From an uncultured Erythrobacter sp. (GTDB lineage: Bacteria; Pseudomonadota; Alphaproteobacteria; Sphingomonadales; Sphingomonadaceae): a DNA stretch of 64,000 nt. Every line of letters begins with the position of its first letter. The stretch's first letter is position 1. Of the stretch, positions 4,875-42,116 are shown one piece after another. The position numbers and the translations under genes are program-made. The stretch is taken from NCBI GenBank assembly GCA_937899785.1, contig CALCCG010000153.1:62001-126000 (forward strand). The letters are read 5' to 3'. The notes under the pieces are model-generated. The model saw nothing but the letters and a program-made list of their open reading frames with translations, searched no databases and was not told where the DNA came from.

Positions 4875-5975
4875 CTAGGCCAAAAGACAATATGGCTGTT
4901 CGATAATGTCCCGAAACGCCTGGATCAATTCCGCACCAAGGGCGCCATCAATAGCGCGATGATCAAAGCTACCCGTCACATTCATTACGTTTGCCACGGT
5001 CAACGCATTGTCGACCACGATGGGTCTTTGCTCACCCGCTCCAATAGCGAGGATCATGCCATGCGGAGGGTTTATCACGGCGCTGAACTGTTTGATTCCA
5101 AACATGCCCAAGTTGGATAGCGAGGCTGTGCCTCCCTGGTATTCATGCGGCTGCAACTTGCCCTCCCGAGCCTTGCCGGCAAGCGCTTTCATCTCGGAGC
5201 TGATTGCGACGACACCCTTTTCACCAGCGCCCCGGACAACGGGCGTTATCAGTCCCGATGGTCCGGCGACCGCAACACTTATGTCCTCTCGCTGGAACTG
5301 CAAAAGCTTGTCATCGCGATAACTCACATTGCATGTCGGCACGCGCTGTAGCGCCCGCGCGAGCGCCTTAATGAGAAAATCGTTCACCGAAAGCTTAACG
5401 CCGTCCGTAGCAAGGGAAGCGTTCAGCTGCTTTCGCAAATCGAGGAGCGCATCGAGCCGAATATCAGCCGTTAGATAATAGTGCGGGACAGTTTGCTTTG
5501 CCTCGGTCAGTCGGCGCGCAATGACCTTTCGGACATTACTAAGCTTTTGCTCCTCGAAAGGAGCGTCGATGGCTGAATCGATAAGAGCAGCGCCCTCAGA
5601 AACCACAGGAGAGGAGCGCTTGGAAGGCTGCTCGCCTTGGGCTGCCGGCTCAAAGTCCTCAACATCTGATCTTACGATCCGACCGTTGGGTCCACTTCCC
5701 TTTACTATCGAAAGATCGACGCCCTTCTCAGCCGCCAAACGACGCGCCAACGGCGAGGCCAACACCTCGCGCACCACCTGTTCCGCCTTGGCAGGCGCAC
5801 TCGTTGATGATGCGCGCAGGGATTCATCCAACTTCATCGAAGCGTTGGCAACATCGTCTTTCGTGATCTTCCCTGCAGGTCCTGTCCCTTCAATCGTGCG
5901 AAGGTCCAGTCCGTTCTCGTCCGCCAAACGGCGCGCTGAAGGGCTAGCCGCTGGCGTAGCAGAGTTAGCCTGCAT
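4875..5975 (-). CDS. 2-oxo-acid dehydrogenase E2 acyltransferase lacking a lipoyl domain
   Basis: Acyltransferase (E2) core of a 2-oxo-acid dehydrogenase complex, 366 residues. It opens with two peripheral-subunit-binding domains in tandem, at about 10-45 (SARRLADENGLDL) and about 75-110 (LARRLAAEKGVDL). The catalytic domain spans about 140-366, with the active-site segment SFDHRAIDG (His339, Asp343). An ordinary E2 begins with one or more lipoyl domains, and none is present: an in-frame TAA lies just upstream of the ATG. A free lipoyl domain is encoded next to the E1 genes at 39.9-42.1 kb and is the likely partner. GAAGGGG precedes the start by nine bases. The start overlaps the end of a small upstream frame, so translation may be coupled. 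Confidence 0.88.
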   Translation of the reverse strand: MQANSATPAASPSARRLADENGLDLRTIEGTGPAGKITKDDVANASMKLDESLRASSTSAPAKAEQVVREVLASPLARRLAAEKGVDLSIVKGSGPNGRIVRSDVEDFEPAAQGEQPSKRSSPVVSEGAALIDSAIDAPFEEQKLSNVRKVIARRLTEAKQTVPHYYLTADIRLDALLDLRKQLNASLATDGVKLSVNDFLIKALARALQRVPTCNVSYRDDKLLQFQREDISVAVAGPSGLITPVVRGAGEKGVVAISSEMKALAGKAREGKLQPHEYQGGTASLSNLGMFGIKQFSAVINPPHGMILAIGAGEQRPIVVDNALTVANVMNVTGSFDHRAIDGALGAELIQAFRDIIEQPYCLLA

Positions 5976-6081
5976 GGCCGTTTACCCCTTCATGATAGAG
6001 GCGCAGCGCACGCACGATTGGGCCCCTCTGCTGCGTCGAGCATTGGCGCTCCTCGATAACAAAGATCCCGTTTTCCGGCAT
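5965..6081 (-). CDS. Possible 38-residue peptide upstream of E2
   Basis: A short frame beginning MPENGIFVIEERQCSTQQRG starts at 6081 and stops at 5965-5967. GGAGAA lies about nine bases before the ATG, a better ribosome site than that of the E2 gene. Its last 11 bases overlap the E2 start in another frame, an arrangement typical of translational coupling. No known family is recognised. It may be a genuine small protein, a leader peptide or chance. Confidence 0.35.
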   Translation of the reverse strand: MPENGIFVIEERQCSTQQRGPIVRALRLYHEGVNGHAG

Positions 6082-6160
6082 GGCACTCGTTTCTCCTGTC
6101 CGGCTTCGTCGTGAAGCGGCGCTTGTCACGATCACAAATCGAACTTTTTGATGTTGGGAA

Positions 6161-6179
6161 ACTCTGCAAAGTGTGAAGG
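6161..6179 (+). promoter_or_regulatory. Recurrent AAAGTGT element, copy 1
   Basis: The sequence ACTCTGCAAAGTGTGAAGG resembles elements before the LuxR gene (36773-36791), the second Rieske gene (38382-38400), and in two other divergent intergenic spaces (20611-20630, 22519-22536). Here it lies in the 325-base space between the E2/small-frame unit and the GST gene; nothing else was recognised there. It is a candidate operator. Confidence 0.35.
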
Positions 6180-6406
6180 GGAGGACCGCACGCTTGGCTA
6201 AGATGATGAAGCGGTGCGATTAATGGGCTGTAATGGCTAACCTCCCGACTGGATGCGTACGGGCGCGCCGCAGGGTGAACCATCACCTTCTTCGCCCTGT
6301 CGTCCTGGCTGCGCCGCAGCGACTTGAACTAGCGCATTTGAGAGGGCGACGGGCGAACGTCGAAGGCGTAGTGATATGGCAAGTTAAGACATGGGAGAGA
6401 TTGCCG

Positions 6407-7051
6407 ATGATCCTGCATTCCAGCCTCGGCCCAAACCCGCGCCTTGTGCGCATGTTCCTCGCCGAAAAGGGACTGGCCGAAGGCCGGGATTTCCAGCGCA
6501 AGCACTACGACATTATCACTGGCGAGAACCGCCAGGATGCCAGCTATATCGCAAAAAACCCGCTCGGGGCCATGCCGACATTGGAGCTGGGTGATGGGAC
6601 ATGCCTTACCGAAAGCTGGCCGATCTGTGAGTACCTTGAAGAGCGTTTTCCGAATCCAAACCTTATCGGGACAAGTGCTGAGGAAGACGCCGAGGTTCGC
6701 AAATGGTGCCGGCTGATCGATCAGGAAATTGTTGTCCCCATGACGATGGGCTTTCGGGCCACCGGAGGTCGTCCCATGTTTGAACCGCGAATGCGCGTAT
6801 TGAGCGAAGCGGCGGGCGCGGAAATGATGGATTACGCTAACGCCAGTTGGCTGTGGCTCGACAAGGCGCTTGGCGATAAGGCACACGTCGCCGCTGGGCG
6901 TATGACGCTGGCCTGCCTGATGGTGTATTGCTTCGCCAATTTCGGTTTCACCGTTGGCTGGACGCTTCCCGATGGCGCGAACAATATTGCGCGCTTTTTG
7001 GACGCGCACAAGGATCGTCCCAGCGCGGGTATTTGGACCCAGAGCGAGTAA
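6407..7051 (+). CDS. Glutathione S-transferase family protein
   Basis: A 214-residue protein with the thioredoxin-like N-terminal half of GSTs. SSLGPNPRLVRMFLAEKGL forms the first strand and helix, NPLGAMPTLELGDG supplies the cis-Pro loop, and LTESWPICEYLEERFP is the glutathione gamma-Glu-binding segment. The helical C-terminal domain starts near residue 85. The ATG at 6407 is chosen because it follows GGGAGAG and matches the family start; the frame continues upstream without family similarity. The SDR gene starts inside its stop codon (TAATG), so they are cotranscribed. In this setting it may conjugate, isomerise or remove a thioether from an electrophilic intermediate. Confidence 0.85.
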   Translation: MILHSSLGPNPRLVRMFLAEKGLAEGRDFQRKHYDIITGENRQDASYIAKNPLGAMPTLELGDGTCLTESWPICEYLEERFPNPNLIGTSAEEDAEVRKWCRLIDQEIVVPMTMGFRATGGRPMFEPRMRVLSEAAGAEMMDYANASWLWLDKALGDKAHVAAGRMTLACLMVYCFANFGFTVGWTLPDGANNIARFLDAHKDRPSAGIWTQSE

Positions 7052-7818
7052 TGCCAGACCTTTCTGGCAAGGTCGCCATTGTCACCGGCTGCGCTTCGGG
7101 TATCGGCGCAGCCACCGTACGGCGCCTGCGCTCCGACGGAGCCGATGTTCTGGGCACAGATATCAATGAGGCGGACGGCGCCGCCGTGTGCCAAGCTATC
7201 CGCGCCCGGTTTGTCAGACACAACGTTTCAGACACCGCGGCGTGGCCCGAGATCGTAGCGCAAGCGACCCAGAGGTGGGGACGGCTCGATATTCTCGTCA
7301 ACAACGCCGGCGTCGTCAGTCAGGCTTCGATTGAAGATGTGACTGACGAGATTTGGGACCGCACCTACGATATCAATATCAAGGGCACGATGGCTGGGTG
7401 CCGCGCGGCCATTGCGGCTATGAAGGCCAATCCTGGCGGAGCTTCTGGTGCGCTTATCAACATCGCCTCCACCAGCGCAATGGCCGCGCTTCCGGGCGAT
7501 GTTGCCTATTGTTCGAGCAAGGGCGCGGTGCGCGTTTTGACCCAATCGGTCGCCGCGCATTGCGCCAAAGCGGGCTACGCGATCCGATGCAACACAATTG
7601 TCCCCGGCGCGACTGAGACCGGAATTCTGAACGATGCGGAAGAAGCCATGCCCGGGTTGAAGGCGGCGGTCGCGGCCACTTCGCCGATGAACCGGCTGGC
7701 CGATCCGGCTGAAACGGCGGCAGCCATCGCCTTCCTCGCTTCGGATGAATGCCCCTATATGACCGGCGCGGAAATGTTGGTGGACGGGGCCATGATGGCC
7801 GTGCATCCAGGTTTTTAG
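7051..7818 (+). CDS. Short-chain dehydrogenase/reductase
   Basis: Classical SDR of 255 residues. The cofactor motif TGCASGIGAAT lies near residue 12, NNAG near 82, and the catalytic Ser with YCSSK near 150. The acidic residue after the second strand (GTDINEADG) favours NAD(H). The C-terminal YMTGAEMLVDGAMMA is the usual SDR ending. It overlaps the GST gene by one base. Its stop overlaps the opposing MFS stop at 7815-7818. It probably oxidises an alcohol or reduces a ketone of the imported substrate; the actual substrate cannot be deduced. Confidence 0.9.
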   Translation: MPDLSGKVAIVTGCASGIGAATVRRLRSDGADVLGTDINEADGAAVCQAIRARFVRHNVSDTAAWPEIVAQATQRWGRLDILVNNAGVVSQASIEDVTDEIWDRTYDINIKGTMAGCRAAIAAMKANPGGASGALINIASTSAMAALPGDVAYCSSKGAVRVLTQSVAAHCAKAGYAIRCNTIVPGATETGILNDAEEAMPGLKAAVAATSPMNRLADPAETAAAIAFLASDECPYMTGAEMLVDGAMMAVHPGF

Positions 7819-9107
7819 CCCCCCGCCATTCGTTCAAGATATCCGCTGCGCCGCATTTGCCCAGCGGTCCAAGCGAACACCGCCATCGCCAGCGCCCCTG
7901 AAACAAGGCAAACGCCGAAAACCGCAATGGTCAACGACTTCGCACCGAGCGTTGGTCCGAGCCAATCGCTGACCCATCCGATCACAGCCAGGCCCAACGC
8001 TTGGCCAACCAGATTGTTGAAAAACAGTGCGATCGCAACCGCAAAGCCGCGCTGGCTGGGTTCGACCGCTGCCTGTATCCCCGAAAGTATCGGCGCTTGG
8101 CTTGCGACGTAGACTGCGTAGGCGAAAGCGAAGAGGGTCAGAAAGGGCCAGAACGCGACAGAAGACAGGCTCAAACCCAGTGGGATGAGGCATCCCAGGC
8201 TTACCGCACCTGGCATCCACGCCCGCCAACGTTCATCGCGCCGCGTCAGCCACCCCGCGACGTACCCTCCCAGAATAGGGCCAGGAATGCCTCCGATGAA
8301 GAAGGCGAGACCAAGATAGAGACCAACCTCCCCGCTTGATATGCCAAAGCTACGGATCATGACCGCCGCCATCCAAAAGGCCAGAGCGTAACCGATCATG
8401 ATCTGCACCGCCCACCCAACGGCCAGCCCCATGAAGACGCGATTGCGAGAAAGCGTGCGTGCCGTTTCCCAAAGCGGACTTTGCTCAATCGAGGCGTTGG
8501 CCGGCGCGTAACGTCCGCGGCGTGGCTCGCGCATTGTCATCCATACAAGGGCTCCGATCACCATGCCGGGAAGCCCCATCAGAACAAAGGTCCAGCGCCA
8601 GCCGAACGCTTCGTTGAGCTGCCCGCCAACCAGAAGTCCACCCGCGGTACCCAGGCTTGCGCCGATCGTTAGGAAGCCCATGGCCTTGGCCAGCTCCTCG
8701 CGACGAAAATAGTCCGCAACAAGGCTCTGCGATGCGGGACCAGAGCCCCCCTCGCCAACGCCCACTCCAGTGCGCGCAAGAAACAAGGACCAGAAGCCAG
8801 TTGCAAGCCCGCATAGCGCGGTCATCGCGCTCCAAAAGGTGATGGCACCGGCCACAATCGTGCGCCGCACGGAGCGATCGGCCAGCCGCGCGGCCGGGAA
8901 GCCGACAATTACGTAGGTCGCCGCAAAGGCGAGCCCTCCAAGAAGGCCAATCTCGCCATCAGAAAAGGCGAACTCCGCCTTGATGTCTTCAAGCAGAATC
9001 GCGAAGACCAGTCGGTCCGCAATCGAAAACATGCTGACCGTTGTCAGAAGCGCGAGAACGTACCAACGATATCCGCCCGGCTCTGCATCGAGCGGCTCTT
9101 TGATCAC
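7815..9107 (-). CDS. MFS transporter, Spinster-like
   Basis: Twelve-helix major facilitator carrier of about 430 residues. The first helix is YRWYVLALLTTVSMFSIADR. The loop between helices 2 and 3 has the MFS signature form GFPAARLADRSVRR, and GVGEGGSGPASQSLVADYF is typical of the Spinster group common in sphingomonads. GTG at 9107 is chosen because it starts five bases after the upstream SDR stop and leaves a normal short cytoplasmic N-terminus; the frame runs further upstream inside the SDR gene without family similarity. It forms an operon with the SDR at 9112-9915. It is likely the inner-membrane carrier for the substrate of the island. Confidence 0.85.
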   Translation of the reverse strand: MIKEPLDAEPGGYRWYVLALLTTVSMFSIADRLVFAILLEDIKAEFAFSDGEIGLLGGLAFAATYVIVGFPAARLADRSVRRTIVAGAITFWSAMTALCGLATGFWSLFLARTGVGVGEGGSGPASQSLVADYFRREELAKAMGFLTIGASLGTAGGLLVGGQLNEAFGWRWTFVLMGLPGMVIGALVWMTMREPRRGRYAPANASIEQSPLWETARTLSRNRVFMGLAVGWAVQIMIGYALAFWMAAVMIRSFGISSGEVGLYLGLAFFIGGIPGPILGGYVAGWLTRRDERWRAWMPGAVSLGCLIPLGLSLSSVAFWPFLTLFAFAYAVYVASQAPILSGIQAAVEPSQRGFAVAIALFFNNLVGQALGLAVIGWVSDWLGPTLGAKSLTIAVFGVCLVSGALAMAVFAWTAGQMRRSGYLERMAGG

Positions 9108-9111
9108 AGCC

Positions 9112-9915
9112 TTAGTGATGAGGACGCGCGTCGAGGCCGTTATCAACGGGAATTGTGACCCCGTTGATAAAACGCGCATCGTCGGATGCAAGAAACAGCA
9201 CGCATCTCGCAATGTCCTGCGGAGCACCGAGCGCGTCCAAAGGCAGCGGGCCATCGGGGATCACCATTGGTGCCTCATCGGCCCGGCCCGTGACTGCCAT
9301 AACCATGGGCGTCTCGATCCCTCCGGGCGCCAGGGCGTTGCACCGAACGCCGTATCCCTCGTCCTGGCAGTGGATCGCAATCGAGCGGGTCATGGCCGCT
9401 ATGGCGCCTTTGGCCGCCGTGTAAGCGGGAATCTCAGCGTATCCCATAAGCGCCGCGGTTGACGCCATATTTATAATCGAGGCCCCGGCATGGCCTTCAG
9501 GCGCGCCCACAACCCTGTGTCGGTTTTTCATGAGCGGCAACGCATATTTGCATCCCAAGAAGGTTCCAGTGACATGCACATCAAGGTGCAATCGGAAGTG
9601 TTCGGGTGGGCATTTCTCGATGTTCTCAAAGATCACAATTCCTGCATTGTTGACGAGGACATCGAGTCCGCCATAGCGCGCCTCTACCGCCTCGATGACT
9701 GTCTTCCACTGGTCTTTGTCAGTCACATCGAGGGCCATCGCATCGCCATTGATTGACGCTGCCACAGCCTGCGCCGCTTCGATGTCGCGGTCGGTCACAA
9801 TCACCTTGGCACCGCTTCGCGCAAGCACCTCACAATCGGCCTTCCCAAGCCCCATTGCGCCACCAGTGACAAGAGCCACGCGTCCTTCCAAGCGTCCCTG
9901 CACGCCTTCGTTCAT
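9112..9915 (-). CDS. Short-chain dehydrogenase/reductase
   Basis: Classical SDR of 267 residues. The Rossmann motif TGGAMGLGKAD starts near residue 17, NNAG near 90, and the catalytic YTAAK near 167. The ending FINGVTIPVDNGL is normal. The Asp in VTDRD after the second strand suggests NAD(H). GGGAGA lies about six bases before the ATG. It is the first gene of a two-gene unit with the MFS carrier and is divergent from the second TonB receptor across a 320-base regulatory space. Confidence 0.9.
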   Translation of the reverse strand: MNEGVQGRLEGRVALVTGGAMGLGKADCEVLARSGAKVIVTDRDIEAAQAVAASINGDAMALDVTDKDQWKTVIEAVEARYGGLDVLVNNAGIVIFENIEKCPPEHFRLHLDVHVTGTFLGCKYALPLMKNRHRVVGAPEGHAGASIINMASTAALMGYAEIPAYTAAKGAIAAMTRSIAIHCQDEGYGVRCNALAPGGIETPMVMAVTGRADEAPMVIPDGPLPLDALGAPQDIARCVLFLASDDARFINGVTIPVDNGLDARPHH

Positions 9916-10016: not shown

Positions 10017-10190
10017 CGCTACGGAAAGTAGGTTTTTTGACATTCTGTGACCAAAAGGCCGCAAAATACCCTCTCGCCTATTGCTTTTGCTAGATGCGCT
10101 CGTCGATCCGAGGTCTACACTCTCCCGGCATGGTCCGCTGGGCGTTCTGGAAAGATCGCTCTCGCCCCAATGGGAAGCGGGTCAGGGGAG

Positions 10191-10220
10191 AAAGGCAAGC
10201 GGGCAAACCCGCTGCCTTTT
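10191..10220 (+). promoter_or_regulatory. Leader hairpin with T-run before the TonB receptor
   Basis: AAAGGCAAGCGGG (10191-10203) pairs with CCCGCTGCCTTT (10208-10219) around a CAAA loop with one bulged A. It ends in TTTT directly before the Shine-Dalgarno AAGGGAGAG (10220-10229). In shape it is an intrinsic terminator placed in the untranslated leader. It could act as an attenuator or mask the ribosome site. Confidence 0.5.
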
Positions 10221-10235
10221 AAGGGAGAGAGCCTG

Positions 10236-12782
10236 ATGCAAACACTTCAAACCCAGACTTCGTTTGGCGTGACTTCAACTGCGCGCCGTGCGCTTCTGGC
10301 GGGCACCGCGCTGGTCGCATTAGCGGCCATGCCAGGAACGGCGCTGGCACAAGGACAAGATTCGACGACGGCTGCATTCGAAGAAGAGGGCGAGCTGGAC
10401 GACAGAGTGATCATTGTCCAAGCCCGCCGACAGAATGAAAGCCTGCAGGAAGTGCCCGTCACCGTCACGGCTATCGGAGGCGAAACACTAGAGCGCTATG
10501 GTGTTGACCAGGTCGCTGATGTTGTCGGCCGCGTGCCGACCTTGAATGTGCAAGTTGGCGGCTCAGGGTCCGGCGGTCAGCTTTCGCTTCGCGGCGTTGG
10601 CTCTTCCAACATTTCCGCCGCCTTCGACAGCGCCGTCGCTTTCGACTTTGACGGAGTGCAGGTTTCGACGATGCGTCTCGTGCAGGCTGGGTTCTTCGAC
10701 ACCCAGCAGATCGACATTCTCAAAGGTCCGCAATCGCTCTTTTTCGGCAAGTCAGCCTCAGCGGGCGTCTTTGCGATCCGCTCTGCGGATCCGACATCAA
10801 CTTGGGAATCGAACATTCGCGCGTCCTACGAGTTTGAGGAGCAGGGCTACACTCTTGGGGGCTATATCTCTGGTCCCCTTACCGACACGCTCGGCATTCG
10901 CCTTGCCGCACAGTGGAACGACATCGACGAATTCGTCGAAATGGAACCCGGTACGCCCACGGCCAACGGACGTTTCCGCGGTCAAGAGAACCTTGTCGCT
11001 CGGGCCACACTCGATTGGGAGCCGAGCGATCGGTTTGATGCCAACCTGAAGGTCCAATACGTTCGCAACGAAGGTGATGGGGCGATTCAGCACACGGATC
11101 AGGACTGCGGTGCGAATGGCGTAGCCGACCCAGTCTTCCTTTTGCAGGGCGTTGCTGCCATCCCGGCCGGCTACAGCTGTGACAGTGATGATGGATTGTA
11201 CTACCTTCCTGATTCCGCTCCCTCGCTTGCAGGCGGCGTGCCGACACCATCGGCAGCGGCTGGTCGCGATGGTGTGCCATTTTCTGAAACCGATGTCTGG
11301 TTCGGCCGCTTTCTTATGAATTTCGAGGTCACCGACACGCTCACCCTCACATCGACGACAGGCTATCTCGATCTCGATGCCGTCGATTTTGACTGCTACG
11401 CCTATGGCGGTGTCGGACCAGCCTTTTCGCCGCTTGGCGACTTGCTTGGCGATCCAGACTTCCTCGCCGCAAACGCGCCGGCATTAGCCGCATCAAATGC
11501 GGCCGGTTCCGCGCAAGGCACGGGCTGTTCCGATCCGGTCAACCAGCTTGAACAGTTCACGCAGGAATTGCGCCTCACGTCGGACTTTGATGGGCCGTTC
11601 AATTTCATGCTGGGTGTGTTCTACGAAGACCGCGATTTTGTCTTTGATACAGCGCAGCAAGCCGTGAACATTTCGCTCATCGCGCCCGATCCGGTGACGG
11701 GCTTCACTTACGATTGGGATCGACGCCAGGACACCGCAACCGAAGCTTTCTCGGTGTTTGGTTCGGTTATCATTGATCTGACGGACGATCTCGAACTGTC
11801 AGGCGGTCTTCGCTACACAGACGAGAGCAAAACGGCTGTCATTACCGTCCCCTTTCTGCACACTTTCCTGCAGGGACCAGGCTTCGTCGCGCCCGGCTTT
11901 AACTCGGGGCCGATTGAGTTTGACGACGACAACTTCTCGCCCGAAGTTACGCTTCGATATCAAGCGACTGATGACGTCAACATCTTTGCATCGTTCAAAA
12001 CCGGATTTAAGTCGGGCGGTATCGACAATTCCGCTCTGCCATCAGCCAGTTTGAGCGTTGCGGCAAACAGCGGTGATTTTGGACCGCTGATCTTCGACTC
12101 TGAAACAACACAGGGCGGTGAGATCGGCTTCAAATCGCAATGGGCCGATCGCACCTTCACGTTGAACGCAACGGCCTATTACTATGTCTTTGATGACCTG
12201 CAGGTGCAAAACTTCGATGCCGTCGCGATCCAGTTTATTACGTTGAACGCCGGTGAGGTCACCTCGCAAGGTGTGGATGTGGAGTGGAATTGGAGAACTC
12301 CAGCTGATGGGCTCACCCTGTCGGGCAACCTCGCTTACCTTGACGCTGAGTTTACCGATACCTTCATTACCGCCTCCGGAACGGACTTGGACGGGCGTGA
12401 CGCGGCGCGCGCACCAACATGGTCCGGGAACTTTGCGGCCGACTTCTTCACTCCGGTCAGCGACAGTCTAGAGTTCGGCTTAAGCGGCAATATGATCTTC
12501 AGCGATGATTACATTGCAAATGAGGATTCCAACAACGACTTCGTCCAGGACAGCTATGTCACGTTCGACGCGACGATATCGCTTGGAGATATCGACAATC
12601 GCTGGAAATTCTCGATCATCGGGGTGAACCTGACAGACGAGATTTGGGTGAACACATCAGCCCCGCGTCCTTTCTTGTCGCCAGGCGGTGCGGCAGGCGC
12701 TGGTCTTCCCCTTGGTGACGACATCCTCCTTACTCAAAACCGAGGCCGTCAGGTCTACGCGGAGGTTCAATTCTCGTTCTGA
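10236..12782 (+). CDS. TonB-dependent outer-membrane receptor
   Basis: Outer-membrane receptor of 848 residues. The signal peptide ends GTALA-QG. A TonB-box-like segment (DDRVIIVQARR) is followed by the plug motifs ESLQEVPVTVTAI, GVGSSN and DILKGPQSLFFGKSASAG. The C-terminal strand RGRQVYAEVQFSF ends in Phe, as expected for BAM-dependent barrels. AAGGGAGAG lies six bases before the ATG. The plug is of the general sphingomonad type found with aromatic, steroid and terpenoid clusters. It stands between the SDR-MFS unit and a Rieske oxygenase, so it likely imports the substrate degraded by the island. A strong terminator follows. Confidence 0.92.
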   Translation: MQTLQTQTSFGVTSTARRALLAGTALVALAAMPGTALAQGQDSTTAAFEEEGELDDRVIIVQARRQNESLQEVPVTVTAIGGETLERYGVDQVADVVGRVPTLNVQVGGSGSGGQLSLRGVGSSNISAAFDSAVAFDFDGVQVSTMRLVQAGFFDTQQIDILKGPQSLFFGKSASAGVFAIRSADPTSTWESNIRASYEFEEQGYTLGGYISGPLTDTLGIRLAAQWNDIDEFVEMEPGTPTANGRFRGQENLVARATLDWEPSDRFDANLKVQYVRNEGDGAIQHTDQDCGANGVADPVFLLQGVAAIPAGYSCDSDDGLYYLPDSAPSLAGGVPTPSAAAGRDGVPFSETDVWFGRFLMNFEVTDTLTLTSTTGYLDLDAVDFDCYAYGGVGPAFSPLGDLLGDPDFLAANAPALAASNAAGSAQGTGCSDPVNQLEQFTQELRLTSDFDGPFNFMLGVFYEDRDFVFDTAQQAVNISLIAPDPVTGFTYDWDRRQDTATEAFSVFGSVIIDLTDDLELSGGLRYTDESKTAVITVPFLHTFLQGPGFVAPGFNSGPIEFDDDNFSPEVTLRYQATDDVNIFASFKTGFKSGGIDNSALPSASLSVAANSGDFGPLIFDSETTQGGEIGFKSQWADRTFTLNATAYYYVFDDLQVQNFDAVAIQFITLNAGEVTSQGVDVEWNWRTPADGLTLSGNLAYLDAEFTDTFITASGTDLDGRDAARAPTWSGNFAADFFTPVSDSLEFGLSGNMIFSDDYIANEDSNNDFVQDSYVTFDATISLGDIDNRWKFSIIGVNLTDEIWVNTSAPRPFLSPGGAAGAGLPLGDDILLTQNRGRQVYAEVQFSF

Positions 12783-22584: not shown

Positions 22585-24768
22585 ATGATGGGTGTTTCAA
22601 CGCACAAGACCTTCTGCCGCTTCTGCCACGCCAATTGCGCGATGGAGGTCGACGTAGAGGACGGGCGCGTGCTTTCGGTGCGGGGAGATCCCGAAGATCC
22701 CGCCTATGGCGGTTACACCTGCATGAAAGGGCGTGAATTGCCCGATTCGCACAACGCCGAACATCGACTAACGCAAAGCCTGGTGCGCGACGCCATGGGT
22801 GATTTTCAACCGACGCCGATGCCCGAAACGCTCGCGCATATCGCGGATAGGCTGCGCGGCATCATCGATAAGCACGGGCCGGACGCGGTCGCCGTTTTCA
22901 TGGGTTCGGGCGGGTATCAGAACAGCGCGGCCTGGGCCGCCTCACACAGTTTTGCGCAAGCCATCGGCTCGAAGCACTTCTTCACCTCGGTGACACTCGA
23001 CCAACCGGCCAAAGTCTTCACCACCGCGCGGTATGGCCAGTGGTCCGGGGGCACAAACACCTTCTCCGAAAGCGATGTAGCGCTGCTGATCGGCAACAAT
23101 CCGATCGTTTCGCATTACTCGCCTCCGGGTGGCGTCCCGCCCTTTAGTCCCTCGCGCCGGATCCGCGACCGGCAGGCAGAGGGCATGAAAGTGATCGTCG
23201 CCGACCCGCGCGAAAGCGACATTGCCCGCCTCGCCAACATCTATCTTCCCGTCAAACCGGGTGAAGATCCCGCGCTGCTCGCCGGGATGATCAATGTGAT
23301 CATAAATGAGGAACTCTACGATCGTAATTTCGTCGCCGCGCATGTCGAAGGTTTTGACGAACTGTTGGACGCGGTCCGCCCGATGACGCCGGAAGTCGCC
23401 GCAGAGCGCGCTGGGGTCGAGACCGACCAACTGGTCGCGGCGGCGCGCATGTTTGCAACCGGCGCCAAAGGCTGCGCGGTCACTGGGACCGGCCCGGAGA
23501 TGGCGGGCAACGGCACCTTGACGGAATACTTGGTCGTCTGCCTCAACACGTTGTGCGCGCGCTTCAAACAGGAAGGCGACAAGGCGGGTATCCCGCGTGT
23601 TTTTACCCCTCCGATGAGCGATCTGAAAGCGCAAGTGGGTCCGGATCTGCCGATGTTCGGCGCTGAAGGGATGGCAAAGTCGCGCTTCCGTGGCCTTGGT
23701 CAGCTCGGCTTCGAGATGCCTTGCAATATCATGGCCGACGAAATTCTGACGCCGGGCGAAGGCCAAATCCGCGCACTGATCAGCGTCGGCGGAAACCCCG
23801 TGGTTGGCTTCCCCAATCAGGAGAAGATGGTTCGGGCACTCGATGATCTGGATCTGTTCGTTCAGATTGACCCGTGGCTGAGTGCAAGCGCCCGCCGCGC
23901 GGATGTGGTGCTTGCGCCCAAGCAATCGCTGGAACGCGACGACATCACAAACCTCTCCGAATGGTGGCATGAAACCGCCTACGCCCGCTATGTCGAGGCA
24001 GTGGCTGAGGCCCCAGGCGATGTGATCGATGAATACGAAATGTTCTGGCATCTCGCGAAGGCGCTGGGCGTGCAAATGGAACTGGGAGGCGGCCCGTTGC
24101 CGATGGACACCGAGGAGCCACCCGCCAAAGTCGATTTCCTTGATCTCTCGACCGCCGGGTGCTTGGTTCCTCCCAGCACAGTGCGCGAAGACGCGCGCGC
24201 CGCCGGGGGTGCCGCGGTGATCTACGAAGACTTGCATCCCCGAATCGGGCCGGGCGATCCTGCGATGGAAAACCGATTCAACCTCGCTGCGGGCGCTATG
24301 CCCGAAGCGCTTCTGCGCTACGCTCAAAACCACACGGTCAAAGCGGGCTATAAGTTTAAGCTGATCAGCCGCCGCTCCAAAGCGCGCTTTAACTCGATCG
24401 GCCATCCGCTCGAAAAACTACGCGCAAGAGCCACAACAAACCCGGCCTACGTTCACCCCGACGACATTGCCGAGTTCAATCTCATCGAAGGGGAGATCGT
24501 CGCGATCTCCAGCCCACACGCCACCATTCACGGCGTGGTCAAAGCGAGCGACCGGGTGCGACGCGGGCTTGTTTCCATGGCGCACGCCTTTGGCGATGCG
24601 CACGCGGACGCCAGCAATGTGCGTGAAATCGGCAGCTCCACAAACCGCCTGACAAGCGACGAGACTGACTACGATCCAATTACGGGTCAGGCTTTGCAAA
24701 GCGCCATACCGATCAAGCTGCAGATGATTAAGGAAACCGCGTCGGCAGCAGAGATGGAGAAAGCCTGA
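22585..24768 (+). CDS. Molybdopterin (bis-MGD) oxidoreductase with [4Fe-4S] cluster
   Basis: Catalytic subunit of the DMSO-reductase superfamily, 727 residues. Cys11, Cys14, Cys18 and Cys46 (FCRFCHANC ... YTCMKG) bind a [4Fe-4S] cluster. Further motifs are VTLDQPAK, the VADPRESDIARLANIYLPVK segment and a C-terminal MGD-binding domain with NRLTSDETDYDPITGQ. There is no Tat signal at the N-terminus, so the enzyme appears cytoplasmic. No electron-transfer subunit is adjacent. GAGGAG precedes the first of two adjacent ATGs. It heads a transcription unit that continues with a CurA-like reductase one base after its stop. Hydroxylation or hydration of the substrate is conceivable. Confidence 0.88.
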   Translation: MMGVSTHKTFCRFCHANCAMEVDVEDGRVLSVRGDPEDPAYGGYTCMKGRELPDSHNAEHRLTQSLVRDAMGDFQPTPMPETLAHIADRLRGIIDKHGPDAVAVFMGSGGYQNSAAWAASHSFAQAIGSKHFFTSVTLDQPAKVFTTARYGQWSGGTNTFSESDVALLIGNNPIVSHYSPPGGVPPFSPSRRIRDRQAEGMKVIVADPRESDIARLANIYLPVKPGEDPALLAGMINVIINEELYDRNFVAAHVEGFDELLDAVRPMTPEVAAERAGVETDQLVAAARMFATGAKGCAVTGTGPEMAGNGTLTEYLVVCLNTLCARFKQEGDKAGIPRVFTPPMSDLKAQVGPDLPMFGAEGMAKSRFRGLGQLGFEMPCNIMADEILTPGEGQIRALISVGGNPVVGFPNQEKMVRALDDLDLFVQIDPWLSASARRADVVLAPKQSLERDDITNLSEWWHETAYARYVEAVAEAPGDVIDEYEMFWHLAKALGVQMELGGGPLPMDTEEPPAKVDFLDLSTAGCLVPPSTVREDARAAGGAAVIYEDLHPRIGPGDPAMENRFNLAAGAMPEALLRYAQNHTVKAGYKFKLISRRSKARFNSIGHPLEKLRARATTNPAYVHPDDIAEFNLIEGEIVAISSPHATIHGVVKASDRVRRGLVSMAHAFGDAHADASNVREIGSSTNRLTSDETDYDPITGQALQSAIPIKLQMIKETASAAEMEKA

Positions 24769-35050: not shown

Positions 35051-35070
35051 TGTTTTCCTTTCGCGCGGGC

Positions 35071-36852: not shown

Positions 36853-37662
36853 ATGGCCACCAACGTAGTCGAGCTTCGCACGCCTCAGGGCAAAGAGACC
36901 ATGGAGCGTCTGCTCCAGCAGGTTACCATTGGCTGCACAGAAGACATTTATGACGCCGCGCAAGCGCTGGCGCGAATTGCGCAAGAACGCGGAATGCAGG
37001 TTGCCGTGTGCGACGACATTTCATCTAAGGAGCCAATGGTCGACGCTGATGGCACTATTTTGAACGCCGACGTTTTTCGTTGGCTCGATGATGGGGCGCG
37101 CTGGTGGGAGGATCATCGCCTCGCTCTGCATTCGCCGCTTCCGCGCGCTTGTCGCTACGAGAGCGAGCCATTTTGGGTGAATCAGCACGGGTTCAACACG
37201 CATTGGCGCAACTCGTATCTGGACGAACTCGACTTGTCGGATTTTGAGCGACGTTCGTTGTGCAAGGCGGCGATAGTAATACCGGTTCATCTGCCGTTCG
37301 GTCAGATTTCCGCGAGCAGCTTCATCAGCGTAGATCGCGATCGCGAAGATCTATCGGATGAGTTTGCGCTTTACGGCACCCTTTTCGCGCAAGTGATCCA
37401 ACGTTTTGTAGCCGGCTATGTCCAAGCGCATCGCACCAAGCGGCGCATTCCGTCGGACTGCGTTTTGTCAAAGCGCGAGGTTGAATGCTTGCGCTGGGCC
37501 GCGATTGGCAAGACCGACCGCGAAATCAGCATGATCCTGGAACGCAGCCACGCTACGATCCGCTATCATATCCACCGCGCTGGCGAGAAACTTGAAAGCG
37601 TGAACCGCGCTCAGACGATCTTCAAAGCGGGCCAATTGGGGTATCTCGGGGCGTCTGACTGA
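36853..37662 (+). CDS. LuxR-family transcriptional regulator (solo)
   Basis: A 269-residue regulator. Residues about 20-180 form an autoinducer-binding-like domain with RWWEDHRLALHSPLPRACRY. Residues about 200-265 form the HTH: VLSKREVECLRWAAIGKTDR, EISMILERS, and YHIHRAGEKLESVNRAQ. No synthase gene is present, so it is a LuxR solo; its ligand may be a catabolic intermediate rather than a homoserine lactone. GGAGAGGAGAG precedes the ATG. As the only regulator in the island it is the first candidate to control the units bearing the AAAGTGT element. Confidence 0.88.
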   Translation: MATNVVELRTPQGKETMERLLQQVTIGCTEDIYDAAQALARIAQERGMQVAVCDDISSKEPMVDADGTILNADVFRWLDDGARWWEDHRLALHSPLPRACRYESEPFWVNQHGFNTHWRNSYLDELDLSDFERRSLCKAAIVIPVHLPFGQISASSFISVDRDREDLSDEFALYGTLFAQVIQRFVAGYVQAHRTKRRIPSDCVLSKREVECLRWAAIGKTDREISMILERSHATIRYHIHRAGEKLESVNRAQTIFKAGQLGYLGASD

Positions 37663-37717
37663 TTGGAATTGGGGGCGTTTGTTCCCTCATATGCCCATGA
37701 CAGGGAGGAAACTTCAA

Positions 37718-37748
37718 GGCGGGCGCTTAGTGTACCCTTACGCCCGCC
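37718..37748. terminator. GC-rich hairpin between convergent genes
   Basis: GGCGGGCG (37718-37725) pairs with CGCCCGCC (37741-37748) around a 15-base loop, between the ends of the LuxR gene and the opposing VOC gene. On the minus strand the stem is followed by TTGAAGTTT, so it probably ends the VOC transcript. It could serve both. Confidence 0.5.
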
Positions 37749-37769
37749 GCGCGGCCTTCAACGTCACAA

Positions 37770-38309
37770 TCAACCGAGCTTTCGCAAAGGCTCGCGGCCG
37801 TCCCATCCAATGCCCGCTTGCTTAATCATCTCGAACAAGGCCGGACTTTCTGGGCTGGGCTGGAGAATTTCCACCAGGCTCCCCGCGCCCGGCCCCGGAT
37901 CGACGTAGATGACGCGGCTTTCTCCAAGTGAGCCTTCGATTAGCACTTCGGCCCCGCTGGCCTCGCTGGCGATATAGGCCTCGCCGATGTCATCAACCAA
38001 TAAGCAGGTGTGATGCAACCCGCCCCCCAACCCGTCAGCGTATTCGCCAGTGTAAATCGAGGGGTGCGTGTCGCGCGGGCGGATGAGCTCGACCTGCAGG
38101 TCCCCCCAATAGGCCAGCGCGAGGTCGAAATGCGCATCGGTCGGTTTGCCTTTGTATTTCATCCCTTCGAGGTGAATTCCTTCCATAAGAAAGAACGGGC
38201 CGACCCCCATTGTCTGAGTCCAATGGGCCACGGCCGCCCCAAAATCCGTCGGGACAAAGGCAATCTGCATGATCTCGCCAAGGCTTGCGATGCCGGTTCG
38301 CACTGTCAT
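37770..38309 (-). CDS. VOC (glyoxalase-like) metalloprotein
   Basis: A 179-residue protein of the vicinal oxygen chelate fold. EIMQIAFVPTDFGAAVAHWT is the first beta-alpha unit, LGGGLHHTCLLVDDIGEA the second with the metal-ligand His pair, and VIYVDPGPGAGSLVEIL the Glu-bearing last strand. GGGAAGAG precedes the ATG at 38309; the open frame continues upstream without homology. Members include ring-cleavage dioxygenases, epimerases and lactoylglutathione lyases. Here it may act on an oxygenated intermediate. It is divergent from the second Rieske gene. Confidence 0.82.
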   Translation of the reverse strand: MTVRTGIASLGEIMQIAFVPTDFGAAVAHWTQTMGVGPFFLMEGIHLEGMKYKGKPTDAHFDLALAYWGDLQVELIRPRDTHPSIYTGEYADGLGGGLHHTCLLVDDIGEAYIASEASGAEVLIEGSLGESRVIYVDPGPGAGSLVEILQPSPESPALFEMIKQAGIGWDGREPLRKLG

Positions 38310-38381
38310 TTTCGCTCTTCCCACTCTCGAATCCGCTAGGGCAATTCTCGCTAAGCTTGTGCGATAACCGACGATGCGAAC

Positions 38382-38440
38382 ACTCCACAAAGTGCGAGGC
38401 CTACGCCCCGCCGTGCGCAAAATGGGATCAAAATGAGGGT
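38382..38440 (+). promoter_or_regulatory. Recurrent element before the second Rieske gene
   Basis: ACTCCACAAAGTGCGAGGC (38382-38400) and TCAAAATGAGGG (38429-38440) repeat, in the same order, the two elements before the LuxR gene. The Rieske start lies seven bases after the second. Candidate operator and ribosome-site region. Confidence 0.4.
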
Positions 38441-38446
38441 GCAATC

Positions 38447-39865
38447 ATGAATGAGATCAAGGATCTGGACAGGGATAGCCGTTGCCCCGGATTGAGCTAC
38501 ACCGACATGTTGAACGGGGATACGCGCACACCGCCCGATTACCTCTTTGAGGAAACAAATCTTGAAATGTCGGATGATCCCATCCCTGTGAGCGCGTATA
38601 TCTCGGAGGATTACGCAAAGGCAGAACGCGAGAAAATGTGGCCCAATGTGTGGCAGTTTGCCGCGCGCGAAGATGAAATGCCCGACCCGGGCGACACCGT
38701 GGTCTACAACATCAACGACAAGAGCTTCCTGCTGGTTCGGCAGAAGGACGGCGCCGTAAAGGCGTTCTATAACGCCTGCCTGCATCGCGGTCGCAAGCTG
38801 CGCACGGAATGCGGTCCCTCGATCCAATTGCGCTGCCCTTTTCATGGGTTCACCTGGCGCAATGACGGATCGCTTAAAGAAATCCCGTCCAACTGGGACT
38901 TCAAGCATCTCAAAGGCAAGGACATGGATCTGCCTGAGGCGCGCGTTGAGTTGTGGCAGGGTTTCGTAATGATCACCGAGAACCACGACCTACCCGATTT
39001 CAAAACCTGGCTTGGACCGGCGGCCGAGCACTATGAGCGCTACGATTTTGAAAACCGCTACACCGGTATGTGGGTGCAAAAGAAGTTTCCCGCCAATTGG
39101 AAGGCCACCGCAGAGGCCTTCATGGAAGCCTGGCATTCGATCACCACGCACCCGCAGTTGCTCGGCTTTCTGGGCGATGCCAACACGCGCTACGATCTGA
39201 TCGGTGATCACTTCAACCGGGCGATCACGCCCTCGGGCGTGCTAAGCCCCCATATTAAAGGCAAGGGCTCCGATTACGTGCTTGAGAAAATGAACGAATT
39301 CTCAGGCGGCGATGATGCCGAAACCAACCGTCGTTTCAACGCGAGCGAGGGCGAAGCCGGCTTTGACCCAGAAGACCCTCTGGCCGCGCGGCGCGTCCTC
39401 GCCGAGGCCGGTCGCCAGGGATTTACCGAGCAATACGGATATGACTATTCGGACGCTTCGGACAGCGAAATCCTCGACAATTTTACTTACAATATCTTCC
39501 CCAATTTCGCCCCATGGATCGGATTCCTGCCCACGCTCGTCTATCGCTGGTTGCCTGGTGAAACCTGTGATGAAAGCATCATGGAAATCCGCCTGCTCTT
39601 CCCCACGCCCAAGGGCGAGGAACGCCCCCGCGCGGTGGAGATGACCTACATTCCCGATGGTGAGCCGTTCTCGAGCGCAGCGGACAAGATGGGCCCGCAG
39701 CTCGCCAATGTGTTCGATCAAGACATGGCCAACCTGCCCTATGTGCAAGAGGGTATGAAGACGCTCAAAAGTGGGCAGATGGAATTGGGCACCTATCAGG
39801 AAAGCCGAGTGCGCCACTTTTACGAGACCATGCAGAAATACCTGAACGGCAAGGTGCCAGCGTAA
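38447..39865 (+). CDS. Rieske non-heme iron oxygenase, alpha subunit
   Basis: Terminal oxygenase subunit of 472 residues. Rieske ligands are Cys111/His113 (CLHRGRKL) and Cys130/His133 (CPFHGF). The catalytic iron ligands are His230 and His235 in AWHSITTHPQ. It is longer than the first Rieske protein (409 residues), with an N-terminal arm of about 45 residues and an insertion near 300-340 (QYGYDYSDASDSEI). The ATG at 38447 follows GAGGGT. No beta subunit or ferredoxin is nearby. It likely acts on a different position or substrate from the first Rieske enzyme. Confidence 0.9.
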   Translation: MNEIKDLDRDSRCPGLSYTDMLNGDTRTPPDYLFEETNLEMSDDPIPVSAYISEDYAKAEREKMWPNVWQFAAREDEMPDPGDTVVYNINDKSFLLVRQKDGAVKAFYNACLHRGRKLRTECGPSIQLRCPFHGFTWRNDGSLKEIPSNWDFKHLKGKDMDLPEARVELWQGFVMITENHDLPDFKTWLGPAAEHYERYDFENRYTGMWVQKKFPANWKATAEAFMEAWHSITTHPQLLGFLGDANTRYDLIGDHFNRAITPSGVLSPHIKGKGSDYVLEKMNEFSGGDDAETNRRFNASEGEAGFDPEDPLAARRVLAEAGRQGFTEQYGYDYSDASDSEILDNFTYNIFPNFAPWIGFLPTLVYRWLPGETCDESIMEIRLLFPTPKGEERPRAVEMTYIPDGEPFSSAADKMGPQLANVFDQDMANLPYVQEGMKTLKSGQMELGTYQESRVRHFYETMQKYLNGKVPA

Positions 39866-39925
39866 GAGCGGGGCGCGGCAAACTCAGAACTGCAAAGAAG
39901 TGGGGCGCGCCAAGATATCGGCTCG

Positions 39926-40156
39926 CTATTCGATCGTACCGATCAAATCGCCGACCTTATAGGTTTCCCCCTCTTCGCCCGTCGGCCGAATAACGCCGCT
40001 GGCCTGGGCTTCGATCTCAACGGTCGTCTTGTCGGTTTCGGCGGTGTAGATGATCTCTCCCTTCGTCACCGTCTCGCCGTCTCCGAACATCCACTCGGCC
40101 AGCACAACCTCGGTCGCGCTCATGCCAAGCTTTGGAATGCGGATTTCTTCAGCCAT
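39926..40156 (-). CDS. Free-standing lipoyl domain protein
   Basis: A 76-residue protein consisting of a single biotinyl/lipoyl-attachment domain. ETDKTT places the modified Lys at position 43 in the tight turn, and YKVGDLIGTIE closes the barrel. Its gene lies five bases after E1beta, completing an E1alpha-E1beta-lipoyl operon. In normal complexes the domain is the N-terminus of E2. Here the E2 core with two subunit-binding domains is 34 kb away at 4875-5975 and lacks it, so this protein likely acts as a mobile acyl carrier in trans. Confidence 0.9.
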   Translation of the reverse strand: MAEEIRIPKLGMSATEVVLAEWMFGDGETVTKGEIIYTAETDKTTVEIEAQASGVIRPTGEEGETYKVGDLIGTIE

Positions 40157-40161
40157 GCAGG

Positions 40162-41148
40162 TCAGTCCCTTCCCATCGACGCTTTGATCTGTTCAACAAT
40201 CTCACCCTTGGTCGGGATCCAGGCCTGTTCGAGATGCGTGGCGAAAGGGACGGCGGCGAAGGTGCCGCCAATGCGGCGTACCGGGCCTTTGAGATCACCC
40301 CAGCATTTCTCCTGGATGTTGGCAGCAAGTTCAGCGCCGGTCCCGAACGGCCGCACCGCTTCGTGCAAAGTGAGGGCGCGGCCCGTTTTTCGCACGCTCG
40401 CCAGCACAGTGGCTTCGTCATAAGGCGCGATCGTGCGCAAATCGACGACCTCTGCGCTGATGCCTTCTTTCTCGAGCTCGCCAGCGACCTCAAGCGCGTC
40501 CAACACTGTGCGCCCGTAGGTGATAAGGCTGATGTCCGAACCCTCCTTGGGAACCGAGGCCTTGCCCAATGGCACACGATAATCAACGCCGGGATCTTCC
40601 GACTTGAGATTGTAGCAAAGGATATTCTCGATAAAGACGACCGGGTCGTTTGCCTCGATTGCGGAGCGCATCAAGCCGCGCGCGTCCGCAGCGTTGGATG
40701 GGGTCACCACATGCATGCCCGCGACATGTGCGAACCACGCCTCCAGCATGTCGGAGTGTTGCCCCCCAAAGCCCACTCCAACGCCCGTCGTGGTGCGGAT
40801 CACGATCGGGCACGGGGTCTGACCGCCACTCATAAACCGCAGTTTCGCCGCGTGGTTGACGATTTGGTCCATGCAAACGCCGACAAAGTTCATCAGCATA
40901 ATTTCAGCAATGGGACGTTGCCCTGCCAGGGCCGCGCCAACGGCTGCGCCAATAATCGCCGTCTCGGAAATGGGCGTCGCGCGGATACGATTCTCGCCAT
41001 ACTTCTCCGTCAGGCCCGAGGTGATCTTGAAAACCCCACCACCCTGCTTCGCCGCAACATCCTCGCCTAGACAAAACACGCCATCATCTACGGCCATAGC
41101 CTCATCGATGGCCTTGTTGAGGGCCTCGGTCATAGTGATCTCAGCCAT
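40162..41148 (-). CDS. 2-oxo-acid dehydrogenase E1 beta subunit
   Basis: A 328-residue transketolase-like beta subunit. The N-terminal pyrimidine-binding domain has LGEDVAAKQGG, ATPISETAIIGAAVGAALAG and GGQHSDMLEAWFAHVAG. The C-terminal domain has SLITYGRTVLDALE and TLHEAVRPFGTGAELAA. It forms the alpha2beta2 thiamine-diphosphate enzyme with the product of the next gene upstream. It shares one base with the E1alpha stop (TAATG on the minus strand). It is most like acetoin or pyruvate dehydrogenase E1 in general; the substrate is not fixed by sequence. Confidence 0.92.
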   Translation of the reverse strand: MAEITMTEALNKAIDEAMAVDDGVFCLGEDVAAKQGGGVFKITSGLTEKYGENRIRATPISETAIIGAAVGAALAGQRPIAEIMLMNFVGVCMDQIVNHAAKLRFMSGGQTPCPIVIRTTTGVGVGFGGQHSDMLEAWFAHVAGMHVVTPSNAADARGLMRSAIEANDPVVFIENILCYNLKSEDPGVDYRVPLGKASVPKEGSDISLITYGRTVLDALEVAGELEKEGISAEVVDLRTIAPYDEATVLASVRKTGRALTLHEAVRPFGTGAELAANIQEKCWGDLKGPVRRIGGTFAAVPFATHLEQAWIPTKGEIVEQIKASMGRD

Positions 41149-42116
41149 TAAGCCGTCTCCTCAAGCACGTCTTTGTAGATTTCGTCGGTGTCCGGAAGCG
41201 GCGCGTCGAGCGCGTGCCGGACAGCAGCGTCGATATCGGCGTCGATCTGGGCAACGACCGCGTCGAGTTCTTCCTCGGTGAATTGGCGTTCCAGCATCAC
41301 CTTGCGCAGCTTGGGCAGCGGGTCCTCCGCCTGCATCTCCGCGAGGTGCTCCTCGGGCATGTACGAGAAGTCCGAGCCAAAGAAGTGTCCCATCATGCGG
41401 TAACACATGGCCTCGACCAGGACCGGTCCCTTGCCGCTGCGGGCGTGCTCGACGGCTTCTTCCATCGCGGGGTAGATCTGGTTCACATCGTTGCCATCGA
41501 CGGTGCCGCCTTTCATCCCGTAGGCTGCCGCGCGGCTCCCGATATTGGGGCTGTCGGTGTGGTCAGCGTAGGCTGTGTGTTCGCCATAACGGTTGTTCTG
41601 GCACAGGAAGATGACGGGCAGTTTGTAGAGCTGCGCCATGTTCATCGCTTCGTGGAAGCCGCCAATATTGGCCGCGCCGTCGCCAAAGCTGACCAGCGTC
41701 ACCTTGCCATCGCCGTTATTCTGGCTCGCCATCGCAAGCCCGTTGGCGATCGGCAAGCCGCTGCCTACGACGCCGGTCGTCACCATGATCCCGGTGTCGG
41801 GATCGGTGATGTGCATCGTACCGCCTTTGCCTTTGCAGGTGCCCGTGGCTTTGCCGAGGCATTCGCCCCACCACTTTTCCATCGGGATGCCCTTGGCCGT
41901 CTGTTCGCCCTGGCCGCGATAGGTGCACACGACGTAGTCTTCGGGCTCAAGCGCAGCCATGGCGGCGGCCGAGACCAGTTCTTGCCCACGCACGCAGTAG
42001 TACATCACGGCGACCTTGCCCTGCATCAGCAGCTCGCGGAACTTCTCATCCGTTCGGTTCACCTTCATCGTGCGGGTGTAAATATCGAGCAGCTTCTTGC
42101 GATCGATTTCAGCCAT
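41148..42116 (-). CDS. 2-oxo-acid dehydrogenase E1 alpha subunit
   Basis: A 322-residue thiamine-diphosphate-binding alpha subunit. The ThDP motif runs from GDG (145-147, FGDGAANIGGFHEAMN) to NN (174-175, FLCQNNRYGEH). MHITDPDTGI is the active-site His loop, and HTDSPNIGSRAAAYGMKGG the conserved phospholoop region. It decarboxylates a 2-oxo acid and passes the acyl group to the lipoyl protein. First gene of the E1alpha-E1beta-lipoyl operon, 48 bases downstream of an SDR on the same strand. No E3 dihydrolipoamide dehydrogenase is in the window. Confidence 0.92.
   Translation of the reverse strand: MAEIDRKKLLDIYTRTMKVNRTDEKFRELLMQGKVAVMYYCVRGQELVSAAAMAALEPEDYVVCTYRGQGEQTAKGIPMEKWWGECLGKATGTCKGKGGTMHITDPDTGIMVTTGVVGSGLPIANGLAMASQNNGDGKVTLVSFGDGAANIGGFHEAMNMAQLYKLPVIFLCQNNRYGEHTAYADHTDSPNIGSRAAAYGMKGGTVDGNDVNQIYPAMEEAVEHARSGKGPVLVEAMCYRMMGHFFGSDFSYMPEEHLAEMQAEDPLPKLRKVMLERQFTEEELDAVVAQIDADIDAAVRHALDAPLPDTDEIYKDVLEETA

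Follow-up and report, generated by a model that had tools for sequence, protein, structure and literature searches.

A lipoyl-less E2 core and a free lipoyl carrier encoded 34 kb apart in a catabolic gene cluster of an uncultured Erythrobacter: a candidate split 2-oxo-acid dehydrogenase

In 2-oxo-acid dehydrogenases, E1 decarboxylates the substrate and loads the acyl group onto a lipoyl arm, from which E2 transfers it to coenzyme A (CoA); E3 then reoxidises the arm. Accounts of these complexes hold that tethering the arm to E2 keeps the intermediates in one assembly. Here we describe a 64,000-nucleotide stretch of an uncultured Erythrobacter sp. (the window; contig C153 of assembly GCA_937899785.1, positions 62001–126000) in which the lipoyl domain and the E2 core are encoded apart. 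On the reverse strand, genes for E1 alpha (41148..42116), E1 beta (40162..41148) and a free lipoyl protein of 76 amino acids (39926..40156) follow one another in that order, and an E2 acyltransferase core of 366 amino acids without a lipoyl domain is encoded on the same strand at 4875..5975.

The E2 core is of the pyruvate dehydrogenase (PDH) type. Pfam identifies a catalytic domain (PF00198, residues 140–365, 259.5 bits; 4881..5558, reverse strand) and two peripheral subunit-binding domains (PF02817), one at residues 10–45 (5841..5948, reverse strand; 66.5 bits with a local hidden Markov model, and PF02817 in the whole-genome search) and one at residues 71–106 (5658..5765, reverse strand), with no match to the lipoyl family PF00364. 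The catalytic domain contains the string DHRAIDG (HxxxDG), the catalytic site in this family. The domain content is as the original prediction had described it, and so is the in-frame stop: TAA-ACG-GCC directly precedes the ATG, placing a TAA at the third codon upstream. No remnant of a lipoyl domain was found with a local profile in the three frames of the 625 bases ahead of the ATG (best E 2.6). The best NCBIfam match is TIGR01349, at 422.6 bits under its cut-off of 445. The window E2 therefore has two hallmarks of its class, a catalytic domain with HxxxDG and a subunit-binding domain, and lacks the third, an N-terminal lipoyl domain on the same chain. E3-binding protein (mammalian protein X) has a lipoyl domain and has lost the catalytic His, whereas the window E2 has no lipoyl domain and retains DHRAIDG. 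Its pair of binding domains is not special, as the PDH E2 of the same genome and several PDH E2s of relatives also have two. A 38-codon open reading frame (ORF) at 6081–5965 on the reverse strand ends 11 bases inside the start of the E2 gene, whose translation could thus be coupled to that of a short peptide encoded just ahead of it.

The 76-residue protein is a complete lipoyl domain, as judged by Pfam (PF00364, residues 3–75), its AlphaFold model and Foldseek. The model has a mean pLDDT (predicted local distance difference test) of 90.7 and places residues 41–44 between strands 35–40 and 45–49; Foldseek matches it to solved lipoyl domains such as 2dnc and 1ghj and, more weakly, to biotinyl domains. 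Lys43, within ETDKTT, is invariant in all 27 aligned rows (27 of 79 available). At E ≤ 0.001 Pfam gives PF00364 alone, which sets the protein apart from the GcvH family. E1 alpha, the thiamine diphosphate (ThDP)-binding subunit, matches PF00676 at 234.8 bits and has PDH E1 alpha (1ni4) as its best solved match; E1 beta matches PF02779 and PF02780 and exceeds the cut-off of NF006667 (345 bits; cut-off 321). The prediction of a free lipoyl domain with ETDKTT after both E1 subunits is thereby confirmed.

The carrier is conserved with E1. We compared the best 80 of 117 related loci found with E1 alpha, with up to 10 kb on each side; most are from Erythrobacter, Porphyrobacter, Altererythrobacter, Sphingopyxis, Blastomonas and Novosphingobium. 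A free lipoyl ORF is present in 78 of the 80, about 1 kb past the end of E1 alpha, i.e., after E1 beta, and the other two loci (L071 and L089) stop at a contig edge. A stricter automatic recount paired E1 beta with a lipoyl-only ORF in 76 of the 80, missing L084 and L087, where the ORF is present.

We then surveyed E2 genes more widely. Of 397 genomes of the family, 77 have an E1 alpha homologue at E ≤ 1e-88. We searched these 77 for PF00198 (289 places), along with 40 genomes of 3.3–6.9 Mb without an E1 alpha match at E ≤ 1e-90 (132 places, of which 20 were fetched and read). Most E2 places in both groups were judged by frame length alone. Loci were fetched for a short frame, a low score or nearness to E1, together with a set of ordinary ones, a selection that is not random; their domains were read with local profiles built from few sequences, and Pfam checks were made on six proteins. 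After removal of duplicates and of 17 edge or partial cases (L199, L200, L146, L148, L026, two in L245, L250, L252, the second frame of L251, L147, L236, L240, L244, L242, L243 and L241), 109 complete catalytic ORFs remained, 28 lipoyl-less and 81 lipoyl-bearing. The expectation that lipoyl domain and E2 core normally form one polypeptide thus holds for 81 of the 109 E2s in this non-random set and fails for 28. As four of the frames of at least 400 amino acids that were read proved to be lipoyl-less (L184, L161, L217 and L228), more lipoyl-less E2s may be hidden. In L245 (G236), L251 (G368), and L250 and L252 (both G363), E2 genes are broken up into overlapping frames or fragments, which could reflect sequencing errors or decay.

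Half of the lipoyl-less E2s counted lie near a free lipoyl gene. A free lipoyl ORF was found within 2.5 kb of 14 of the 28 lipoyl-less E2s versus none of the 81 lipoyl-bearing ones, the loci being non-random and some of the latter having little flank; when at least 1.2 kb of flank on both sides was required, the counts were 14 of 28 versus 0 of 43 (Fisher p 1.7e-7). Three lipoyl-bearing E2s (L185–L187) have a free lipoyl ORF 5.7–9.2 kb away, beside another E1 set. Among E1-alpha-bearing stretches, 19 of 20 in the first batch of loci and 22 of 31 in the second contain a free lipoyl ORF. Complete lipoyl-less E2s were read in 19 of the 77 E1-alpha-positive genomes versus 3 of the 40 negative ones, which were read less fully (Fisher p 0.026). 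In two of these three negative genomes (G119 and G038) the lipoyl-less E2 lies beside its own E1/free-lipoyl set, and in the third (G144) it lies beside a lipoyl-bearing E1 beta; two E1-alpha-negative genomes have a split set whose E1 is more distantly related (L217 and L218).

Some of these sets are compact. Within the window's family, E1 alpha, E1 beta, a free lipoyl domain and a bare E2 form four-gene sets in L163 and L201 (one genome), L177, L192 and L193 (one genome), L195 and L218; L217 has the same order inside a longer frame. Diaphorobacter sp. HDW4B and Paraburkholderia sprentiae also carry four-gene sets, on plasmids in which the E2 bears the annotation "2-oxo acid dehydrogenase subunit E2" and the carrier "lipoyl domain-containing protein". 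Trios of two E1 genes and a lipoyl gene with no adjoining E2 occur in Azospirillum sp. B510 (L231) and on a plasmid of Streptomyces NBC_00564 (L235). These two trios, both outside the window's family, lie near genes for ring-hydroxylating (Rieske-type) oxygenases and flavin adenine dinucleotide (FAD)-binding proteins.

Three genomes yielded E2s that, like that of the window, combine two binding domains with the absence of a lipoyl domain, as checked with Pfam: the window, G051 (L145) and G322 (L183). Their distances from E1 beta are 34 kb, about 16 kb and 3.4 kb, respectively, and from a free lipoyl ORF 34 kb, about 19 kb and 9 kb; for L145, the free lipoyl ORF is in the neighbouring stretch L150, not in its own fetched stretch. 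Taking chance as twice the distance divided by the genome length (3–3.6 Mb), we roughly estimate the probability of such nearness to E1 beta at 2%, 1% and 0.3%. The E2s of G051 and G322 also lie among catabolic genes.

Lipoyl-less E2s probably arose more than once, as judged from the distribution of the label on a quick tree of the 109 catalytic domains. The label requires 7 changes on this tree, at least 4 of them forced by starred branches, versus 25.1 for shuffled labels; branches are long and the changes may be gains or losses. For the three two-domain lipoyl-less E2s, the trees differ. A tree of the catalytic domain only first suggested that those of the window and G051 were separate losses. 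The quick tree places the three together with a Shimodaira–Hasegawa-like approximate likelihood ratio (SH-aLRT) of 89, not starred; a careful tree of 33 rows places the window E2 with that of G322 at 67/23 and that of G051 apart; and a single clade of the three is not rejected by the approximately unbiased (AU) test (p-AU 0.256).

The rest of the genome supplies the other components. The PF00198 search led to three places: the window E2; a PDH-type E2 on C249 with a lipoyl domain, two binding domains and a core (TIGR01349, 534.1 bits; cut-off 445); and, on C165, an edge fragment that is branched-chain-like by eye. Since the expected 2-oxoglutarate E2 was not among the PF00198 matches of the assembly, the assembly may miss an E2. 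A PDH-type E1 alpha and an E1 beta with an N-terminal lipoyl domain are encoded on C118, and a dihydrolipoyl dehydrogenase (TIGR01350, 550.5 bits; cut-off 408.8) on C57. The statement that no E3 is present is therefore correct for the window but not for the genome, in which genes assigned by sequence to all four kinds of component, E1, E2, lipoyl carrier and E3, are found. The idea that the window E2 arose by recent truncation from the PDH E2 of this genome was rejected, since the two are 62% identical and are not sisters in the trees. An E2 from a Novosphingobium sp. KA1 plasmid (68% identity over 81% of the query) was set aside too; it is lipoyl-bearing and comes with E1 and E3 genes of its own.

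How might these parts work together? We read them as a split 2-oxo-acid-type dehydrogenase whose lipoyl carrier is diffusible and in which the window E2 would serve the window E1, and we give this reading about an even chance. The surrounding catabolic genes would make the substrate, be it a 2-oxo acid, an acyloin or a diketone, for the ThDP-dependent E1 alpha and beta, which would reductively acylate a lipoyl group on Lys43 of the carrier; that Lys43 is lipoylated, and that the carrier docks on its partners, we infer. The untethered carrier would travel to the lipoyl-less E2 core, whose HxxxDG site would hand the acyl group on to CoA, and the C57 E3 would reoxidise the carrier. The two subunit-binding domains of the window E2 may hold E3 and perhaps E1. 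Our guess at the substrate class, aromatic, steroid-like or terpenoid-like, comes from the neighbouring genes for Rieske oxygenases, acyl-CoA dehydrogenases and FAD-binding proteins. More generally, catabolic clusters may hold E2s that were divided, on several occasions as it appears, between a soluble lipoyl carrier and an acyltransferase lacking the lipoyl domain, with the window representing the recruitment of a PDH-derived E2; on this wider proposal, too, we are evenly divided.

What underlies the proposal is the gene content, the domain make-up, the conservation of the carrier with E1 and the repeated occurrence of lipoyl-less E2s next to free lipoyl genes. If the carrier is diffusible, as first suggested, E1 and a free lipoyl protein should occur together and lipoyl-less E2s should recur near such sets. 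Both are seen, the latter including four-gene operons, and the idea is supported. That the window E2 is a necessary partner is not supported. All four genes are present in the window, but its E2 gene stands alone, 34 kb away from E1, and in 31 of the 36 genomes whose E1 alpha is at least 63% identical no complete lipoyl-less E2 was seen, mostly as judged by frame length. The window E2 is thus no obligate partner of the operon. The five exceptions are G000, G225, G140, G339 and G281, the E2 of G281 lying beside its own E1 set. All seven genomes of the same genus with this E1 alpha (G180, G260, G292, G323, G344, G364 and G383) have three E2 places each, with frames of at least 406 amino acids, and no complete lipoyl-less E2 was seen in them. 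Most hosts of the E1/carrier operon therefore seem to manage without a lipoyl-less E2 of its own, presumably because a housekeeping E2 serves it in trans; in this genome, the operon may have recruited a PDH-derived E2.

Several other observations weigh against the split reading. In the 80 related loci, the window E2 gave three weak matches (median 41%), which we dismissed as window-like E2s beside the operon and took to be other E2s. The E1 alphas of G051 and G322 are 46% identical to that of the window, and the trees disagree on whether the three two-domain E2s form one family. Of the 14 lipoyl-less E2s with no free lipoyl ORF within 2.5 kb, five have one farther along the stretch and nine have none in it; conversely, 1 of 20 and 9 of 31 E1-alpha-bearing stretches contain no free lipoyl ORF. 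Neither of two further lipoyl-less E2s that the tree places in its PDH part, L190 (G254; without a binding domain) and L228 (G144; with one), is accompanied by a free lipoyl ORF in its fetched stretch. The codon usage of the window E2 is atypical (0.56, most genes being at 0.6–0.8 on a scale built from our own gene calls right of 44 kb in the window), which fits a foreign or weakly expressed gene. Finally, the assembly consists of 256 contigs, with completeness of 95.85% and contamination of 6.93%.

Given these points, the possibility that a housekeeping E2 of the PDH, branched-chain or 2-oxoglutarate type serves the E1/free-lipoyl operon in trans, the window E2 being incidental or active in another reaction, deserves attention. 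The scarcity of lipoyl-less E2s in close relatives and of window-like E2s in the 80 loci is what it would lead one to expect, and the genome has the lipoyl-bearing E2 on C249 and a PDH-type E1 on C118. An ordinary E2 of this kind had been named as something that could overturn the prediction; it is present, but nothing shows that it serves the window E1. Since all three two-domain lipoyl-less E2s lie near E1/free-lipoyl sets and many such sets are adjoined by dedicated lipoyl-less E2s, we hold this explanation to be possible but somewhat unlikely. It is also conceivable that the window E2 belongs to the PDH complex as an accessory subunit, co-assembling with the PDH E2 and using the lipoyl domains of that protein and of PDH E1 beta. 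Its PDH-type profile, its resemblance to the C249 protein and the lipoyl domain on the C118 E1 beta would all suit such a role, as would L228, where a PDH-type lipoyl-less E2 lies beside a lipoyl-bearing E1 beta. However, the window E2 is in a catabolic cluster on C153, away from the PDH genes, and its counterparts in G051 and G322 are likewise among catabolic genes, so that we regard this role as improbable. The set at L228 (551–2961) is PDH-like, with the lipoyl domain on E1 beta and an E2 made of a binding domain and a core; as read from its domains, it would be another way to move the arm off E2.

A further explanation takes the E1/free-lipoyl set to be an acetoin-dehydrogenase-like system that cleaves acyloins or diketones, with an acyl acceptor other than a classical E2. 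The best NCBIfam match of the carrier is indeed an acetoin dehydrogenase E2 model (NF011457), but at 60.5 bits it is far under the cut-off of 307 and nearly equalled by a 2-oxoglutarate E2 model (54.6 bits). Sphingobium relatives of E1 alpha are annotated as acetoin:DCPIP oxidoreductase alpha, and matches of the adjoining short-chain dehydrogenase/reductase (SDR) include a meso-2,3-butanediol dehydrogenase model, under its cut-off; annotation names rest on similarity, however, and the best models and solved matches of E1 alpha are PDH and 2-oxo-acid E1s. We consider this system quite improbable. That the window E2 is a decaying or non-functional copy of a PDH E2 strikes us as highly improbable. 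Its solitary position, its end branches (0.53, 1.14 and 0.29 in three trees) and its codon usage could be read in this way, but the 366-codon frame is intact and DHRAIDG is kept. Compared with the PDH E2 of L122, it differs at 22.8, 20.7 and 60.9% of first, second and third codon positions, and in 3 of 3 comparisons third-position differences were more than twice those at the first and second, an excess which implies that the ORF is under constraint. When drift was simulated with substitutions only, the frame stayed open in 15 of 200 copies at 82% identity and in 2 of 200 at 75%.

The setting of these genes is that of a catabolic cluster. Upstream of E1 alpha is the SDR gene (42165..42929, reverse strand), a conserved neighbour matched in 77 of the 80 related loci (median identity 79%), with one cluster directly upstream in 65; the best NCBIfam SDR models shown are all under their cut-offs. 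Other frequent neighbours, named by eye or from window homologues, encode SnoaL-like, Rieske, LuxR, acyl-CoA dehydrogenase and VOC proteins. A molybdopterin oxidoreductase gene (22585–24768, forward strand) lies within the cluster, and the left part of the window has two genes for TonB-dependent receptors (968–3595 and 10047–12782, both forward strand), the first followed by a gene for a Y_phosphatase3 protein. At its right end the cluster is bounded by tRNA-Ser(cga) (44248–44337, reverse strand), beyond which the genes look household by eye, an arrangement resembling a genomic island at a tRNA.

If the split reading is correct, it would describe a further form of lipoate-dependent dehydrogenase, in which acyl groups travel on a diffusible protein carrier and not on a tethered swinging arm. 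A separately encoded carrier, and E2s that lack the arm and probably lost it more than once, would show that tethering is dispensable and would offer naturally occurring pairs with which to ask why it is retained as a rule. A reaction could also be assigned to poorly annotated parts of catabolic clusters. In a literature search at the level of titles and the beginnings of abstracts, covering few subscription journals, we found no description of a set that combines E1 alpha and beta, a free-standing lipoyl domain and an E2 without one. According to one source, only five lipoate-dependent complexes had been characterised (PMC6067878).

Among known systems, the alphaproteobacterial PDH complex (E1 alpha, lipoyl-bearing E1 beta, an E2 with lipoyl, subunit-binding and catalytic domains, and E3; here C118, C249 and C57) shares with the window set the E1 alpha and beta subunits, the catalytic and binding domains of E2 and the PDH-type E2 profile. 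Unlike it, the window set has a separate 76-residue lipoyl protein, a lipoyl-less E2, an E1 beta without an N-terminal lipoyl domain and a location in a catabolic cluster. Actinobacterial OdhA, to which the PDH E2 supplies lipoyl-lysine in trans (PMC10415282), is a precedent for a lipoyl group provided in this way. In OdhA/KGD, however, E2o is fused to E1o (PMC10415282), whereas in the window E1, carrier and E2 are all separate, the E1 and E2 ORFs being more than 34 kb apart. The glycine cleavage H protein (GcvH) and LbpA, free lipoyl carriers (PMC6067878), are small and free-standing like the window protein; LbpA resembles GcvH (PMC6067878), whereas the window carrier matches PF00364 alone and goes with E1 alpha and beta. 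Archaeal lipoyl-only, single-domain proteins have been listed as a class and, in the part of that source available to us, are not linked to an E1 operon or a lipoyl-less E2 (PMC3904984). The plasmid sets of Diaphorobacter sp. HDW4B and Paraburkholderia sprentiae have the same parts as the window, E1 alpha, E1 beta, a free lipoyl protein and a bare E2; their E2 is a core of 249 or 275 amino acids without binding domains, whereas the window E2 keeps two and is encoded 34 kb away.

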